32,667 nucleotides of DNA from Candidatus Saccharimonadota bacterium (GTDB taxonomy: Bacteria; Bacteroidota; Bacteroidia; B-17B0; Aurantibacillaceae): positions 1 to 32,667 of the forward strand of contig CAJCJB010000368.1 in assembly GCA_903970545.1 (NCBI GenBank), given 5' to 3'. Under the pieces are notes generated by a model, which saw nothing but the letters and a program-made list of their open reading frames with translations, searched no databases and had not been told where the DNA came from. The stretch's first letter is position 1. Each line of letters starts with the position of its first letter. This document shows, in pieces, positions 4,776 through 16,624 of this stretch. Both the position numbers and the translations under genes were made by a program.

Positions 4776-5501
4776 GTGAGTAACGTTTACCAAAAAATTA
4801 GTACATCCTACAAAAAGAAACAACCCCAGTTAGCAGTCCTAATTGACCCTGATAAATTTAATCTGGAATTAATTGAACTGGCAAATACATGCCATGTACA
4901 TTACTTTTTTGTTGGCGGAAGCGAGCTTACAAATGGAAATATTGATAAAACCATTTCAACAATCAAGAAGTACTCAAAAATTCCTGTAGTTATTTTCCCG
5001 GGAGATGAAAAACAACTTAGCGCAAAAGCAGATGCTGTTTTGTTTCTATCCCTACTATCCGGTAGAAACCCGGAGTATTTAATAGGTAAACAGGTTGTAG
5101 CCGCACCTTTTATTAAACAAATGAAATTAGAGTGTATATCAACTGCCTACATTTTAGTTGAAGGAAATAAAAAGTCCACCACCCAAAAGATTACAAAAAC
5201 TAAACCATTAAACAATGCCCAAATAATTATTAATACTGCTATTGCAGCTGAATTACTTGGATTTAAAACAATCTATTTAGAGGCAGGTAGCGGAGCAAAG
5301 AAAAATATAAATACAACTTTGATTAAAAGGGTGAAACAAAACACAAACATTCCATTACTTGTTGGTGGTGGTATTGATAATATTCAAAAAGCAGAACAAA
5401 CAATTAATTCAGGTGCAGATATACTTGTAGTAGGTAATGCATTAGAAAAAAATATTCAGTTGTTAACTCAATTATCTTCATTGTTTAAAAAAATAACCTA
5501 A
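4776..5501 (+). CDS. Geranylgeranylglyceryl phosphate synthase family protein (PcrB/GGGPS)
   Basis: 241 residues with a GTG start two bases after the previous stop. TIM-barrel prenyltransferase motifs: LIDPDK at 22-27 (Asp for Mg/diphosphate), FVGGSELT at 45-52, YLEAGSGA at 167-174 and VGGGI at 196-200 (glycerol-1-phosphate phosphate-binding loops), then VVGNALEKN at 218-226. The family joins a polyprenyl diphosphate to sn-glycerol-1-phosphate, the first committed ether-lipid step in Archaea. Homologues occur across Bacteroidota, and group II bacterial enzymes are reported to be active. Chain length and the fate of the product cannot be read from this sequence. No glycerol-1-phosphate dehydrogenase is in the window. 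Confidence 0.9.
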   Translation: MSNVYQKISTSYKKKQPQLAVLIDPDKFNLELIELANTCHVHYFFVGGSELTNGNIDKTISTIKKYSKIPVVIFPGDEKQLSAKADAVLFLSLLSGRNPEYLIGKQVVAAPFIKQMKLECISTAYILVEGNKKSTTQKITKTKPLNNAQIIINTAIAAELLGFKTIYLEAGSGAKKNINTTLIKRVKQNTNIPLLVGGGIDNIQKAEQTINSGADILVVGNALEKNIQLLTQLSSLFKKIT

Positions 5502-6133
5502 TGAAAGTTATAGTTATATCCCCTTCTAAAATAAAAGAAGAAGAAATAAAAAATCTAACCTTAATGTTTGAAGCAGGTTTAGAGTCCTATCATTTACGTA
5601 AACCAAAATTTAGCACACAGCAATTAAAAGAATATATTGAAAAAATTCCTAAACAATTTCGTAACCGAATTGTCATACATTCTCATCATAATTTAGCACG
5701 TAAATATGATTTGCAAGGAGTTCATTATACAAAGAAACACTTAGAGCCAACCTTTCGTAATTGGTGGAGAGAAAAACTATTGCACATAACTACAAGTCAT
5801 TTTATTAAAACAACATCGCATGGTAAACTTTCTTCGCTTTATGAAGAAGAGGAAATGAAATTTGATTATGTGTTTCTATCTCCCATTTTTGATACGATAA
5901 CAGGTAAATACCAAAGTGGGTTTTATGAAGATAGCATTATCGCTGCCATACAAAAAACAGGGAAAAAAATAATTGCACGCGGAGGCGTTGATGCTACACG
6001 TGTGGAAAAAATAAATGAATTGGGTTTTTATGGCATGGCATTATACAGCAGTTTATGGGATAGAGAAAGCCCGGTAGAAGAATATTTAAAAGTTATACAT
6101 CGTTGTAAAGAACTTGGTATTCATGTTGAATAA
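5501..6133 (+). CDS. ThiE/TenI-like TIM-barrel protein, paralogue 1
   Basis: 210 residues; its ATG overlaps the previous TAA (TAATG), so translation is probably coupled. It aligns with thiamine-phosphate synthase: YHLRK at 30-34 (cf. QLR of ThiE), DLQGVH at 70-75, YVFLSPIFDT at 123-132 (cf. GxGPxxxT) and ARGGVD at 159-164. The Mg/diphosphate-binding ND pair seen in the real ThiE of this window (N65-D66) is replaced by HSHHNL at 60-65. Canonical thiamine-phosphate synthesis is therefore doubtful. A TenI-like isomerase or another phosphate-ligand role is possible. It is sister to the next gene. Confidence 0.72.
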   Translation: MKVIVISPSKIKEEEIKNLTLMFEAGLESYHLRKPKFSTQQLKEYIEKIPKQFRNRIVIHSHHNLARKYDLQGVHYTKKHLEPTFRNWWREKLLHITTSHFIKTTSHGKLSSLYEEEEMKFDYVFLSPIFDTITGKYQSGFYEDSIIAAIQKTGKKIIARGGVDATRVEKINELGFYGMALYSSLWDRESPVEEYLKVIHRCKELGIHVE

Positions 6134-6720
6134 TGAGTTTTGAGTTTATTATAATTACTCCTGAAAAAGATTATCCAAAAGAAACCGAAGTTATTTGTAA
6201 TTTATTTAAAGCAGGTTTAAAAAAATTACATGTAAGAAAACCTAATGCCTCCTTAAATGAATTACGCGACTATATAAAACATATTCCAAAACAATTCCAT
6301 AAAAGAATTGTCGTTCATTCTCATTACGAATTAACAAAAGAATTTAACCTTAAAGGAATTCATCTTACAGAGAAGACAAAAAAATTAAAGGTTAGAGCCA
6401 ATCATTTAAAAATTGTTTCTGCTTCTTTTCATTCTGTACAAGATATTTTTAAAAGCAGAAGAAAATACGAGTATGTTTTTTTAAGTCCGGTATTTGATAG
6501 TATAAGTAAGCAAGGGTATAAAAGTAATTTTACGAATGATGAGCTTGCTTTATTCTTAAAGAAATCAAAACAAAATGTGTTTGCTTTAGGTGGCATAAAC
6601 TATAGAAACATTCTATCAGTTAAGAAGCTAAAATTTTCAGGTGCTGCCGCTTTGGGTTATATATGGGAAAGCAAAAACCCTGTGGAGCGTTACAAAAAAC
6701 TTGTTTCAAAAATCAAGTAA
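6133..6720 (+). CDS. ThiE/TenI-like TIM-barrel protein, paralogue 2
   Basis: 195 residues, TAATG overlap with paralogue 1. The same landmarks recur in order: LHVRK at 32-36, HSHYELTKEFNLKGIHLT at 62-79, YVFLSPVFDS at 114-123 and ALGGIN at 151-156. It lacks about 15 residues of the mid and C-terminal length of paralogue 1. As there, the ThiE ND pair is replaced by HSH. The shared replacement and adjacency point to a tandem duplication followed by divergence. Its 3' end overlaps the convergent thiF end by 15 bases. Function is unknown; the bona fide thiE is at 12540-13178. Confidence 0.7.
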   Translation: MSFEFIIITPEKDYPKETEVICNLFKAGLKKLHVRKPNASLNELRDYIKHIPKQFHKRIVVHSHYELTKEFNLKGIHLTEKTKKLKVRANHLKIVSASFHSVQDIFKSRRKYEYVFLSPVFDSISKQGYKSNFTNDELALFLKKSKQNVFALGGINYRNILSVKKLKFSGAAALGYIWESKNPVERYKKLVSKIK

Positions 6721-9006: not shown

Positions 9007-9111
9007 GGCTTGCAGCGTATTTAGTTACTAACTGCGGTTAATATTTAGGGCTTGGAATTGTGGATTTTTCGTTTAGATTATAGGGACGGGAGGTTTTTGT
9101 ATATTTGGGAG

Positions 9112-10008
9112 ATGAAAAGAAAGGAATTAACAAAAGAGCACGATATAGTTATTAATGCAATTCAAAAAGCATTGAAACATGTGCCAAAAGATATTGAATT
9201 ACAAAAAGAAATATTTTACAAAGACCCCGAATACAAAAAATATAAAGGAGTAAGATATGACAAAGGATATACTAAGTGTAAGAATGATGTATTGAAAAGA
9301 TTTAGCAATGCTTGTTGTGTTTGCTTATCTACAGAGAAGGTTGTGTGGCATCATTTATATAGTTATAAATATTATCCTGATTTAAGAACAGACTTTAATA
9401 ATGGAGTTTGTGTGTGTGAAGTTTGTCATAGTAATTTTAATGCTTTATATGGAAACGTAAATACTTTAGAACAGTTTATTGAGTTTAGAAATACGGATAA
9501 AAATAAAGATGGAAAGAGACTTACTTTTCCAGAAGCTATTGAGTCTAGGAAGGGTAGTTACTTTGGAATAAAAGCTCAAAATACTCATAATATCAAAAAT
9601 GATTCAACGGTAAAGCACAAACAAACTCCGAAAGAAAAAGAAAATCAAAAAAAGATAATAGATAGTTTTGAAAGTTTAAAAAGTAATATTATCAAAGAAG
9701 AGGAAGAACTAAAAAAGAAATATGGTTACGATAAAGGCATCAAAATAAATTTTAGAGGCAAAGAAACTACCTCTTTGAGTGCTATTTCAAAGTTATCTAA
9801 AGAGTGTACTAGAATAAACACATTAATTAGTTGCAATAAAATAAGAGACAAGAAACTTATGGCTTCTAAATTTCATATGTCAGAGATAGATTTCTTAAAA
9901 AAACTTCAAGACCCCGCACAATATCTTAATTTTACTGATTCAGAAATAACACATCTAAACGATATTAAAGTGAATGACTATCCAATAGATAAATATTTTA
10001 ATGAATAG
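9112..10008 (+). CDS. HNH-endonuclease-like protein
   Basis: 298 residues from the ATG at 9112; an upstream in-frame TTG at 9052 would add an unlikely N-terminus. A compact zinc/HNH core spans residues ~68-110: CxxC at 68/71, WHH at 79-81, FNNG at 95-98, CxxCH at 102-106. This is the four-Cys ribbon framing His-Asn-His catalytic residues. The C-terminal ~130 residues are Lys/Ile-rich with helical character and an RGKETTSLSAISKLSK segment that might be a DNA-recognition motif; this is a guess. TATATTTG at 9100-9107 could be a -7 box giving a near-leaderless mRNA. It is oriented against the thi operon that it interrupts. It could be a homing-type or phage-defence nuclease. Confidence 0.7.
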   Translation: MKRKELTKEHDIVINAIQKALKHVPKDIELQKEIFYKDPEYKKYKGVRYDKGYTKCKNDVLKRFSNACCVCLSTEKVVWHHLYSYKYYPDLRTDFNNGVCVCEVCHSNFNALYGNVNTLEQFIEFRNTDKNKDGKRLTFPEAIESRKGSYFGIKAQNTHNIKNDSTVKHKQTPKEKENQKKIIDSFESLKSNIIKEEEELKKKYGYDKGIKINFRGKETTSLSAISKLSKECTRINTLISCNKIRDKKLMASKFHMSEIDFLKKLQDPAQYLNFTDSEITHLNDIKVNDYPIDKYFNE

Positions 10009-10135: not shown

Positions 10136-11260
10136 TTAAAAACTTCTATCCCAATCTTTCCAAACGGGTTCGTAGCCTTGTTGTTTAATTAGGGTAGTAA
10201 TTTGTTGGGGGCTGCGCTCATCGGATATCTCGAACTGCTCTAAGGATTGAGGTTCTACAACATAACCACCGGGGTTGGTTTTAGAGCCTGCACTCATACT
10301 GGTAATGCCCAGTTTAATAACGTGGTTGCGGAAGTTTTCATCCTCGCGGGTAGAAATAGATAACTCAACCTCGGGATTAAAAATGCGATATGCACAAATT
10401 AGTTGCACGAGTTGTTTATCGCTCATAAAAGAGGTGAAAGATTTCATGGACGAATTATTTTGCGTGCCAACTTCTATGGGTCTTAAACGGGGAAAGGAAA
10501 TGGAGTACTTGGTTTTCCAATAGGTTTTTTCGAGATAATGTAAATGCAGGGCGGTAAAAAAGCAATCGGTGCGCCAATCTTCCAGTCCAATTAAAACCCC
10601 TAATCCTATTTTGTGTACTTGGGCTTTGCCTAGTCTGTCGGGGGTTTCCAGTCTGTAATCGAAGTTAGATTTTTTGCCTTTTGGGTGATGTGTTTTGTAA
10701 TTATTGCGATGATAGGTTTCCTGATAAACCAACACCGTGTTTAAACCTTCGGCTAGTAAGGTTTCATAATCGGGTTGGTCAAGCGGTTGCACCTCGATAG
10801 AGATATGAGAAAAATACGGACGAATTAATTGAATGGCATGTTGCAAATAATTTACGCCAACGGTTTGATTTGCTTCGCCTGTAACCAACAACACATGGTC
10901 GTAGCCCATTTGTTTGATGGCTTTTACTTCCTGCAGTATCTCATCATCGGAAAGTGTTTTGCGTTTTATTTTATTATCTAAACTAAATGCGCAATAGGTG
11001 CAAATATTCTGACACTCGTTGCTTAAATAAAGCGGCACATACATTTGTATGGTTTTGCCAAAGCGTTTTTGTGTGAGCACATTGCTTAGCTGAGCTATCT
11101 GCTCTAAATAGGACATGGCAGCCGGAGAAATTAATGCCTTGAAATCTTCTAAGGTGCGTTTATCTTTTTGCAAAGCCTGCAATACATCGGCATTTGTTTT
11201 AGCAAGAATGCTTTGCTTTACTTCGTCCCAATTGTATGTGTTGAATAGGTCTTTAAACAT
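10136..11260 (-). CDS. thiH: 2-iminoacetate synthase (radical SAM)
   Basis: 374 residues. ThiH cleaves tyrosine to dehydroglycine (2-iminoacetate) and p-cresol, supplying the C-N unit of the thiazole. The radical-SAM cluster motif is C83-QNI-C87-TY-C90 (CxxxCxxC), with the following SLDNKIKRKTLS segment typical of ThiH, and SAGSKTNPGGY near the C-terminus. Use of ThiH rather than glycine oxidase ThiO fits oxygen-independent thiazole synthesis. It is the last thi gene before the accessory block and follows thiG, from which it is separated by the GxxExxY cassette. Its start region lies inside one copy of a 34-base direct repeat. Confidence 0.95.
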   Translation of the reverse strand: MFKDLFNTYNWDEVKQSILAKTNADVLQALQKDKRTLEDFKALISPAAMSYLEQIAQLSNVLTQKRFGKTIQMYVPLYLSNECQNICTYCAFSLDNKIKRKTLSDDEILQEVKAIKQMGYDHVLLVTGEANQTVGVNYLQHAIQLIRPYFSHISIEVQPLDQPDYETLLAEGLNTVLVYQETYHRNNYKTHHPKGKKSNFDYRLETPDRLGKAQVHKIGLGVLIGLEDWRTDCFFTALHLHYLEKTYWKTKYSISFPRLRPIEVGTQNNSSMKSFTSFMSDKQLVQLICAYRIFNPEVELSISTREDENFRNHVIKLGITSMSAGSKTNPGGYVVEPQSLEQFEISDERSPQQITTLIKQQGYEPVWKDWDRSF

Positions 11261-11355
11261 TTTTAATTTCTTTCTCGCAGATAGCGCGGATTTTCACAGA
11301 TTTTTATTTTGTATGATTAATCATTTTTAGTTTCTTTCTCGCAGATAACGCAGAT
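11258..11355. repeat. 34-base direct repeat flanking the thiH leader
   Basis: Copies at 11258-11291 and 11322-11355 differ at three positions. Each starts with the complement of an ATG (CATTTTTA...) and ends with a CTCGCAGAT-containing element. The first copy includes the thiH start; the second provides a decoy start on the minus strand that would encode only MINHTK. Confidence 0.75.
11338..11355 (+). repeat. CGCAGAT element, left end of GxxExxY cassette
   Basis: CTCGCAGATAACGCAGAT touches the stop codon of the GxxExxY gene. It is the inverted partner of the element at 11731-11758 and the 3' part of the 34-base direct repeat. Confidence 0.7.
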
Positions 11356-11732
11356 TAGAGATTATTAGCTATTCTTATTATGGATGATGAAATGTTATCT
11401 GTATTAAAATTAACAAGCAGCCCAAGTTTTTTATTTGTAAGTTTAAGGTAAGTAAGCAATTGTTTGTGATGAACGGGAGCTAAGGCTTCAACAGATTTAA
11501 TTTCTATAATTACTTTTTCATTAACTAATATATCAAGTCTAAAACCTAAGTCTAATTTAATTTCATCATACGTTACGGGGATAGGTGCTTGCGTTTTAAT
11601 TTCCAGACCATCTTTACTTAATTCATAAGAAAGAGCAGCCTCATAAACCGATTCTAATAATCCGGGACCTAATGTATTATATACATTAAAAATAGCTCCC
11701 CTTATTTTATATGAAATATCGTTTTCGTTCAT
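11355..11732 (-). CDS. GxxExxY protein (PD-(D/E)xK-like fold)
   Basis: 125 residues. The naming motif G24-LL-E27-SV-Y30 is intact. A nuclease-like signature follows: D67 in FRLDILV, then E77-I-K79 (IIEIK), matching the D...ExK pattern of the PDDEXK_3 family. Members are common in Bacteroidota, often in several copies, and have no established function. It interrupts the thi operon between thiG (32-base gap) and thiH (94-base gap), in the same orientation, whereas neighbouring thi genes are 0-4 bases apart. Inverted CGCAGAT-type elements overlap both its start and stop codons, so it looks like an inserted cassette. Confidence 0.9.
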   Translation of the reverse strand: MNENDISYKIRGAIFNVYNTLGPGLLESVYEAALSYELSKDGLEIKTQAPIPVTYDEIKLDLGFRLDILVNEKVIIEIKSVEALAPVHHKQLLTYLKLTNKKLGLLVNFNTDNISSSIIRIANNL

Positions 11733-11758
11733 CTGCGTTTATTTGCGAAATCTGCGAG
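11731..11758 (-). repeat. CGCAGAT element, right end of GxxExxY cassette
   Basis: On the minus strand it starts CTCGCAGAT and ends AACGCAGAT, the same two blocks as the left element but with ten extra bases between. The last bases overlap the GxxExxY start codon. Confidence 0.7.
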
Positions 11759-11764
11759 ACACTT

Positions 11765-12535
11765 TTACTCTTCTAAAAATGCCGTTAACGGACTACTTGC
11801 TTCTGCAAAGTTTTTTGGTTTGGCTAGCTTAGCTTCGAAGGCTATTCGCCCCGCTTCCACAGCCATTTTAAATGCTTTGGCCATTTGTACCGGATTTTGA
11901 GAAACAGCAATGGCGGTATTTACTAAAACTGCATCGGCTCCCATTTCCATTGCTTCTGCTGCATGAGAGGGCGCGCCAATACCGGCATCAACCACTACAG
12001 GTACTTTACTTTGCTCGATAATTATTTCTAAAAACTCGCGGGTACGTAAACCTTTATTGCTGCCGATAACAGAACCAAGTGGCATTACGGCAGCTACTCC
12101 TACTTCTTCTAATCGTTTGCATAACACGGGGTCGGCATGTATATATGGCAAAACAACAAAACCAAGTTTTACTAATTCTTCGGCTGCTTTTAATGTTTCA
12201 ATGGCATCAGGTAATAAATATTTTGGGTCGGGATGTATTTCTAATTTCAACCAGTTTGTTTCTAAGGCCTCTCTTGCCATTTGTGCAGCAAATACAGCTT
12301 CTTTAGCATTGCGAACACCGGATGTGTTAGGGAATAAATTAAATTGAGGATGAGAGAGATGGGTTAAAATATCATCATCGGTATTTTTTACATCTACTCT
12401 TTTTAAAGCAACCGTAACCAATTCAGAACCTGAAACCAGCAAAGCTTCTTCCATAAGAACAGAAGAACTGAACTTACCTGTTCCTGTAAATAAACGAGAG
12501 GAGAATGTTTTATTTGCTATAATTAATGGCTTCAT
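11765..12535 (-). CDS. thiG: Thiazole synthase
   Basis: 256 residues, standard length. ThiG condenses 1-deoxy-D-xylulose 5-phosphate, dehydroglycine and ThiS-thiocarboxylate into the thiazole phosphate. The Schiff-base lysine is K97 in [10 protein letters not shown]; the phosphate site is visible as [20 protein letters not shown], preceded by [14 protein letters not shown]. Its start lies four bases after the thiE stop, showing operon membership. The GxxExxY cassette follows. Confidence 0.97.
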
Positions 12536-12539
12536 TTAA

Positions 12540-13178
12540 TCAGGCTTTAATCGTGTTGTGTTCTAACTGTGATAAAAACTCTTTTACAGTTTCTCTTTTA
12601 TCTTTTGAAAAGGTAATAGCACTTGCCATGGCAATTCCGTAAACACTACTATTCAATAATGCTGAAACATCATTTGAGGTAATTCCTCCGATAGCAATGA
12701 TAGGAATAGCCATATTATTAGCCCTGCATTTATTTATTATTTGTGTATAGCCTTCAATGCCCAATACAGGACTTAACTTTTCTTTAGTTGAGGTAAAACG
12801 AAAAGGACCTAAACCTATATAATCAACATTTGCTGCATGCATTTTAATATCTTCAAACGTGTTGGCAGTACCTCCAATAATAAAATTACTTCCTAATAAT
12901 TTTCTTGCTTCAGCGGTGCTTATATCTTCTTTTCCTAAATGCACACCATCAGCGTGTATTTCTTTTGCTAATTCAACACTATCATTTATAATAAGTTTTG
13001 CATGGTATTTTCTGCAAACAGCTAATGTATCTAAAGCAATAGTTTTCCATTCAGCATACGGTTTATTTTTAACACGCAACTGAACCCAATCTACTCCGGC
13101 TATGCAGGCTTCCTCAGCCAGTTCTGCATGAGTTTTACCTTCTACTTCTTGTGTTATATAATGTAATTTAGAAATCAT
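12540..13178 (-). CDS. thiE: Thiamine-phosphate synthase
   Basis: 212 residues. Couples HMP-diphosphate with thiazole phosphate to give thiamine phosphate. Motifs: WVQLRVKN at 31-38, LIINDSVEL at 62-70 (N65-D66, diphosphate/Mg ligands), DGVHLGKEDI at 77-86, GLGPFRFTSTKEKLSP at 122-137 and AIGGI at 162-166. Its start overlaps the thiD stop as ATGA. This is the canonical copy; the two ThiE-like proteins at 5501-6720 lack the ND pair. Confidence 0.96.
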   Translation of the reverse strand: MISKLHYITQEVEGKTHAELAEEACIAGVDWVQLRVKNKPYAEWKTIALDTLAVCRKYHAKLIINDSVELAKEIHADGVHLGKEDISTAEARKLLGSNFIIGGTANTFEDIKMHAANVDYIGLGPFRFTSTKEKLSPVLGIEGYTQIINKCRANNMAIPIIAIGGITSNDVSALLNSSVYGIAMASAITFSKDKRETVKEFLSQLEHNTIKA

Positions 13179-16473: not shown

Positions 16474-16540
16474 GCCTTCTTTAATTATTATATACGAAAA
16501 TTTAGAGGGGCGAGAGAAACACCGAAAGCATTTCTTTCAC

Positions 16541-16614
16541 TTTTCCCTTCGCAGGCATTACCCTGTTCAGGTTCAAAGGGTTTTTCTCAGACTGCAATGC
16601 AGACACCCCTAAAG
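16541..16614 (-). promoter_or_regulatory. TPP riboswitch (THI element)
   Basis: The minus strand carries the conserved THI-box pieces in order: GGGGTGTCTG, CTGAGA, ACCCTTTGAACCTGA and CAGGGTAATGCCTGCGAAGG. These form the thiamine-pyrophosphate aptamer upstream of thiS. The following ~65 bases show a GAAAG/CTTTC mini-stem but no clear terminator, so control may act at the ribosome-binding region of thiS. Confidence 0.97.
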
Positions 16615-16624
16615 TTTTCTACTA

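Follow-up and report, generated by a model that had tools for sequence, protein, structure and literature searches.

The closest described counterparts of the element reported here are the REP, REPIN and BIME repeats together with their RAYT (TnpA-REP) enzymes. In both cases, a gene lies between inverted copies of a short cognate repeat, many gene-free inverted copies occupy intergenic positions, the clade of the enzyme matches the type of repeat, and the copy number of the gene is low. By contrast to RAYT, which is an HUH (Y1) enzyme, the GxxExxY protein is a PD-(D/E)xK protein resembling Cas4 and lambda exonuclease and matches PF13366 only. Because an HUH enzyme is absent, the GxxExxY element does not qualify as a RAYT system. 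Its repeats differ as well, being arrays of heptamer iterons at fixed spacing, of which several types are possible within one genome, and the gene can reach about 20 copies.

A second parallel is provided by the intervening sequences (IVSs) of 23S rRNA that carry an open reading frame (ORF) of the S23/four-helix-bundle family (TIGR02436). These also place a small ORF between inverted repeats and have been proposed to be selfish, and four-helix-bundle genes in the relatives analysed here carry inverted iteron arms. In the 23S rRNA IVS of Coxiella, heptamer repeats of the sequence GACAGAT are located just before the ORF in the loop (PMC4990558). Unlike these IVSs, the GxxExxY cassette codes for a protein with a nuclease fold and resides in an operon of protein genes (thiG-thiH), not in rRNA. 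Homing endonuclease genes are comparable in that they are small, free-standing and patchily distributed nuclease genes with occupied and empty sites, but the GxxExxY element has recognition-like repeats at both ends as well as gene-free palindromes, and involves no intron or intein. Pairs of MITEs and insertion sequences share the inverted ends and the occurrence of gene-bearing and gene-free forms, whereas GxxExxY elements contain neither a DDE nor an HUH transposase, and the gene-free copies in one genome (G018) share iterons only. With Cas4, RecB and lambda exonuclease, the GxxExxY protein has in common the fold, the motif-I Glu, the D-ExK and QxxxY motifs and a weak Cas4 profile similarity. 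It comprises only about 125 residues, however, and no CRISPR or recombination partners were seen at the loci examined.

To our knowledge, the annotation of GxxExxY in many genomes is that of a family with no assigned function. In the openly accessible literature, no description of such elements was found for GxxExxY, PF13366 or the repeat sequences, although an earlier description may exist elsewhere. Here we report on a GxxExxY gene within a window of 32,667 nucleotides, the whole stretch of DNA analysed, and on its counterparts in other genomes. Most of nearly 200 GxxExxY loci from at least 10 phyla are flanked by inverted arrays, each with a matching motif of its own. These findings suggest that bacteria and archaea contain elements of an undescribed class that combine a nuclease with repeats.

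Results and Discussion

The GxxExxY gene of the window (11355-11732, minus strand; 125 codons) encodes a PD-(D/E)xK nuclease of the RecB/Cas4 type, with the characteristic residues E27, Y30, D67, E77, K79, Q91 and Y95, and lies between two thiamine genes on the minus strand. Its upstream neighbor is thiG (11765-12535, minus strand), according to the ORF list and a profile match, and its downstream neighbor is thiH (10136-11260, minus strand), according to the ORF list, a profile match and comparison with relatives. A first-pass annotation made from the sequence had pointed out the tight spacing of the other thi genes, which are indeed at most 4 bases apart or overlapping. It had also described CGCAGAT blocks that are inverted around the GxxExxY gene and overlap its start and stop codons, and this is borne out by the sequence and by shuffling. 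There are six copies of CGCAGAT in the window, whereas 1.6 are expected and 0 of 100 shuffles reached six; five of these copies are at the GxxExxY gene.

The 5' arm (11731-11756, minus strand) contains three iterons, CGCAGAT, CGCAAAT and CGCAGAT, separated by TT and AAA, and the last of these (11731-11737) contains the ATG and overlaps the start codon (CGCAGATG). On the 3' side there are two copies of the arm, both read on the plus strand. The inner copy (11340-11355) is made up of two CGCAGAT iterons separated by AA, as opposed to three iterons in the 5' arm and in the outer copy, and its iteron at 11349-11355 overlaps the stop codon (TAATCTGCG). The outer copy (11276-11301) consists of CGCAGAT, CGCGGAT and CACAGAT, separated by AG and TTT. 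It had been labeled an extra direct copy, which is incorrect: like the 5' arm it has three iterons with spacers of 2 and 3 bases from the outside, so that its spacing mirrors that of the 5' arm, of which it is the true partner.

Several further features of the window were noted. An ordinary TPP riboswitch is located upstream of the thi operon (16527-16620, minus strand). Besides thiE (12540-13178), there are two adjacent ORFs at 5501-6720 that appear by eye to be thiamine-phosphate synthase/TenI-like, which would make three related genes in the window, two of them judged by eye. An ORF with a putative HNH-like Cys/His pattern (9052-10008, plus strand) lies on the strand opposite to thiH and downstream of it.

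The proposal that the cassette is inserted is supported by empty thiG-thiH junctions within the same genus. The junction of G005 (L124) reads ...TTTTTAGATTAGTAAAAATGTTTAAAG..., and those of G002 and G004 are empty, too. Compared with G005, the whole element corresponds to an inserted segment at 11266-11762 (minus strand). This segment is bordered by TAAAA both on the thiG side, where it includes the thiG stop codon (11763-11767, minus strand), and on the thiH side (11261-11265, minus strand), and a single TAAAA is present in the empty junction of G005. As judged from this single AT-rich case, the borders could possibly be the two copies of a 5-base target-site duplication. Target-site duplication was not established as a general rule, given that the clean pair of G014 and G020 shows none and G018 gives no clear signal. 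Based on ORFs and profiles, no known transposase is present in the insert, and its sole gene is the PD-(D/E)xK gene.

Identical junctions were observed in different states among the relatives. The thiG-thiH junction carries GxxExxY in G000, G011 and G036, gene-free palindromes in G013 and G025, and, in G001, which belongs to the same genus, a four-helix-bundle (TIGR02436) gene whose inverted arms are different. Similarly, the rfaE1-ubiE junction is occupied in G001, G006 and G014, empty in G020, a close relative of G014, with no clear duplication, and contains a gene-free palindrome in G012. In G010 and G013, the lpdA-hemH junction is occupied by proteins that differ in clade and iteron type, whereas a solo arm remains in G021. 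At thiG-thiH and at rfaE1-ubiE, gene-free and gene-bearing forms share a position, as could result from homing, in which cleavage by the nuclease at gene-free palindromes of its own type is followed by copying of the gene into them through repair, without true transposition. However, the gene-free and gene-bearing types at shared junctions are often different, empty junctions that lack a palindrome become occupied as well (G005 versus G000, and G020 versus G014), and the gene-free copies could instead be remnants of deletions. We consider homing rather unlikely. As a separate observation on the rfaE1-ubiE junction, the inserted element provides the ATG start codon of ubiE, where the empty relative apparently has TTG (L352 versus L346).

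GxxExxY genes were present in 42 of 60 relatives, with a maximum of 20 per genome. For 106 loci from the 60 relatives, the inverted match of the upstream flank with its own downstream flank had a median of 23, versus 12 for swapped flanks (p = 3e-45). The own-arm match was found again in 80 loci from named genomes (p = 7e-32), which represent at least 10 phyla, namely Bacteroidota, Balneolota, Acidobacteriota, Planctomycetota, Cyanobacteriota, Verrucomicrobiota, Chloroflexota, Nitrospirota, Ignavibacteriota and Thermodesulfobacteriota, and include a Methanosarcinales archaeon. A strict array, defined by at least two CRCNRAK iterons per arm in both arms, was detected in 43 of 110 and in 43 of 81 loci, and loci below this threshold have variant iterons or are decayed. 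Such arrays were present at 0 of 67 control genes, and an own-arm excess was not found for thiH, ubiE and hemH. Mismatched partners, these control genes and reversed-pattern controls, which were near zero, together rule out chance or general intergenic composition. The first-pass annotation had raised the question whether CGCAGAT-type repeats always flank GxxExxY genes. These genes are generally accompanied by inverted repeats, but CGCAGAT as the sole motif is ruled out because iteron types differ between clades. Carriage by phages or plasmids was rejected as well, with 0 of 50,697 phage records, six plasmid records and 1 of 2.9 million viral contigs matching.

Most iterons fit the heptamer CRC-N-RAK and others are variants of it, with usually two to four per arm at fixed spacing. 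An iteron type was assignable in 100 of 110 loci, and the types seen comprise CRCAGAT, CRCAGAG, CRCAAAG, CACTAAG, CATATAAG, CACATAG, CACCAAA, TACGAA, TATGAT and others. The motif differs between genes, and the two arms of a gene agree in motif and spacing. Within elements, 451 iterons are in the expected forward direction and 38 in reverse. Spacer lengths are mirrored between the arms in 37 of the 46 elements that have three iterons in both arms, compared with 8.3 expected for swapped partners. Agreement between own arms at iteron positions 2, 5 and 7 amounts to 0.92, 0.87 and 0.99, versus 0.54, 0.49 and 0.59 between swapped arms, and there is a slight excess at position 4 (0.62 own versus 0.53 swapped) and in the pairing of spacers (0.61 versus 0.48). 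Because own arms match at positions 2, 5 and 7 but hardly at position 4 or in the spacers, they resemble paired protein-binding sites more than a simple stem, and a pure base-paired stem is disfavored as the conserved feature.

This result bears on the possibility of an RNA-level element, the arms of which would form the stem of a processed transcript, as in 23S rRNA IVSs that are cut by RNase III. Such a function would explain the placement in operons, GxxExxY being co-directional with both neighbors in 79 cases and opposite in 4. It would also be in line with the stability of the gene-free elements when folded as RNA hairpins (z of -2.5 to -5.9), and with the heptamers preceding the loop ORF in the Coxiella IVS. 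By contrast, pairing at position 4 and in the spacers is little above that of swapped partners, and gene-free copies are equally common between convergent and divergent genes (11 versus 10). We regard an RNA-level element as improbable. The predominance of co-directional loci also fits the expression of GxxExxY by read-through.

In profile searches, the protein encoded in the window was identified as a full-length member of TIGR04256 (E 1e-43, 148 bits, cut-off 35) and matched PF13366 (PDDEXK_3) over its full length (E 1e-42, 145 bits, cut-off 22), with weak similarity to Cas4. Among 45 diverse members of the family, E27, Y30, D67 and K79 are invariant, Q91 and Y95 are nearly invariant, and E77 is conserved in at least 90%. 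An AlphaFold (AF2) model of the protein has a pLDDT of 96, and its best match among solved folds is Cas4 SSO0001, followed by lambda-type exonucleases, with E of about 1e-3. As modeled, GxxExxY would be a minimal nuclease, similar to Cas4 and lambda exonuclease, whose active site is intact. There are no cysteines (Fe-S) in the translation of 125 residues, and no cas genes were recognized among the ORFs of the window. A known defense system was set aside, the similarity to Cas4 being only weak.

Iterons tend to differ from one GxxExxY clade to the next. The iteron type, mapped onto a tree of 106 GxxExxY proteins, changes 32 times, compared with 66.7 times after shuffling. Similarity between proteins is correlated with similarity between arms (Mantel r of 0.36, permutation maximum of 0.09), and r is about 0 for distant flanks. 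Arms that are inherited jointly with the gene would follow the protein tree anyway, and the tree and Mantel results alone are thus no proof of recognition. The protein columns that vary most with the letters of the iteron are in helix 1 (residues 8, 11 and 18) and at residues 113-117, a ranking that we take as a lead only, with non-independent pairs and gaps included.

Among the links between protein and iteron, only enrichment in trans argues for action at a distance. After removal of the pairs at GxxExxY genes themselves, genomes with versus without the cognate gene contain a median of 4 versus 0 gene-free pairs for CGCAGAT (p = 1e-4), 12 versus 0 for CACAGAG (p = 1e-5) and 11.5 versus 0 for CATATAAG (p = 5e-9), although these p-values are optimistic because the counted genomes are phylogenetically related. 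The enrichment of gene-free palindromes alongside the cognate gene points away from a lone cassette and towards a system of two parts. Many gene-free repeats in the absence of a cognate gene were observed in G016 (CACAGAG), G010 (CGCAGAT) and G034 (CATATAAG). The first-pass annotation had considered that the repeats might occur freely at random sites. Gene-free copies are indeed widespread, but as inverted palindromes that are enriched together with the cognate gene and are intergenic, with 0-22% inside ORFs versus 85-91% at control positions.

The gene-free elements mostly consist of two inward-facing arms, and at times of alternating arrays. In G018, 11 of 20 sampled gene-free sites pass a strict palindrome test, and most of these have a spacing of 3,2 on both sides and an outer GC, like the GxxExxY gene L038 of the same genome. 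The similarity of their loops is no higher than that of shuffled sequence. Hence, recent copying of a single sequence does not account for the gene-free elements of G018, in which only the iterons have been kept, and a simple MITE whose interior is conserved is ruled out for this genome. Two other arrangements of repeats were noted. In G007 (L409-L415), CATATAAG arms form alternating, BIME-like multi-copy arrays, in which some loops are nearly identical. On contigs C9, C11 and C31 of G011, pairs of CGCAGAT with a spacer of 3 occur in regular direct arrays, unlike the palindromes, for example at C11:157929-158571 with steps near 92 or 221 bases.

The intergenic position of the gene-free copies, and the fact that arms are intact while loops and spacers diverge, could also reflect regulation that is useful to the host. 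The palindromes would then be selected terminators or mRNA-stability elements, and GxxExxY would be a domesticated regulator that binds them. However, convergent junctions are not preferred, the elements are patchily present between congeners, and active-site residues that are invariant or nearly so would be unexpected in a mere regulator. We consider host regulation decidedly improbable.

On balance, we favor as probable that GxxExxY genes and their arms constitute a large class of minimal, REP/RAYT-like elements, each composed of a Cas4-like nuclease and cognate iteron arms that it presumably recognizes. The insertion at thiG-thiH, the matched inverted arms, the association of protein clade with iteron type, the excess of gene-free copies in trans, the modeled fold and the conserved active-site residues are shown by the data, and for the protein, we infer iteron binding, cleavage and nuclease-driven movement. 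It would most likely recognize arms of its own type, both at its own gene and at intergenic gene-free palindromes, and cut or process the DNA there, which would allow the gene and its arms to spread or be maintained jointly, with the gene probably being expressed via read-through from the host operon. A more far-reaching proposal, which we make tentatively and with less than even confidence, is that GxxExxY proteins are sequence-specific nucleases driving an undescribed mobile or REP-like class in bacteria and archaea, with a code at iteron positions 2, 5 and 7, action in trans on gene-free palindromes and a Cas4-like enzyme in the role of RAYT.

Four-helix-bundle (TIGR02436) genes of the relatives (L149-L178) also lie between inverted arms made up of iterons of their own types, and own arms match better than swapped arms (p = 4e-10; see TTAGGTGTTAGGTATTAGG in L158 for an example). 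Since these genes do not encode nucleases and have the same kind of arms, a nuclease is dispensable for the architecture. Together with the heptamers of the Coxiella IVS, they indicate that the architecture is wider than one family, and that GxxExxY could still be passive cargo. In that case, inverted iteron elements carrying small genes would be spread by a different machinery (an unknown transposase or recombination), and the nuclease would be inert on iterons. Apart from the four-helix-bundle genes between similar arms, one of them at thiG-thiH in G001, this would agree with gene-free elements being far more numerous than genes. Yet the iteron type tracks the GxxExxY clade, gene-free copies of the cognate type are enriched in trans, and no common third gene was seen within the elements; we give little credence to passive carriage.

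Under the favored reading of a nuclease with cognate arms, the link between GxxExxY and iterons provides a candidate substrate for the protein family and a prediction of the repeat read by each copy, and it makes available dozens of natural variants, differing in specificity, of a nuclease of 125 residues. If true, GxxExxY would be a second, unrelated enzyme class for REP-type repeat systems. The link may also help to explain 23S rRNA IVSs, the ORF family of which has the same kind of arms.

The four-helix-bundle gene of G001 (L125) is located upstream of thiH between TTAGC-type inverted repeats, in the place of GxxExxY.
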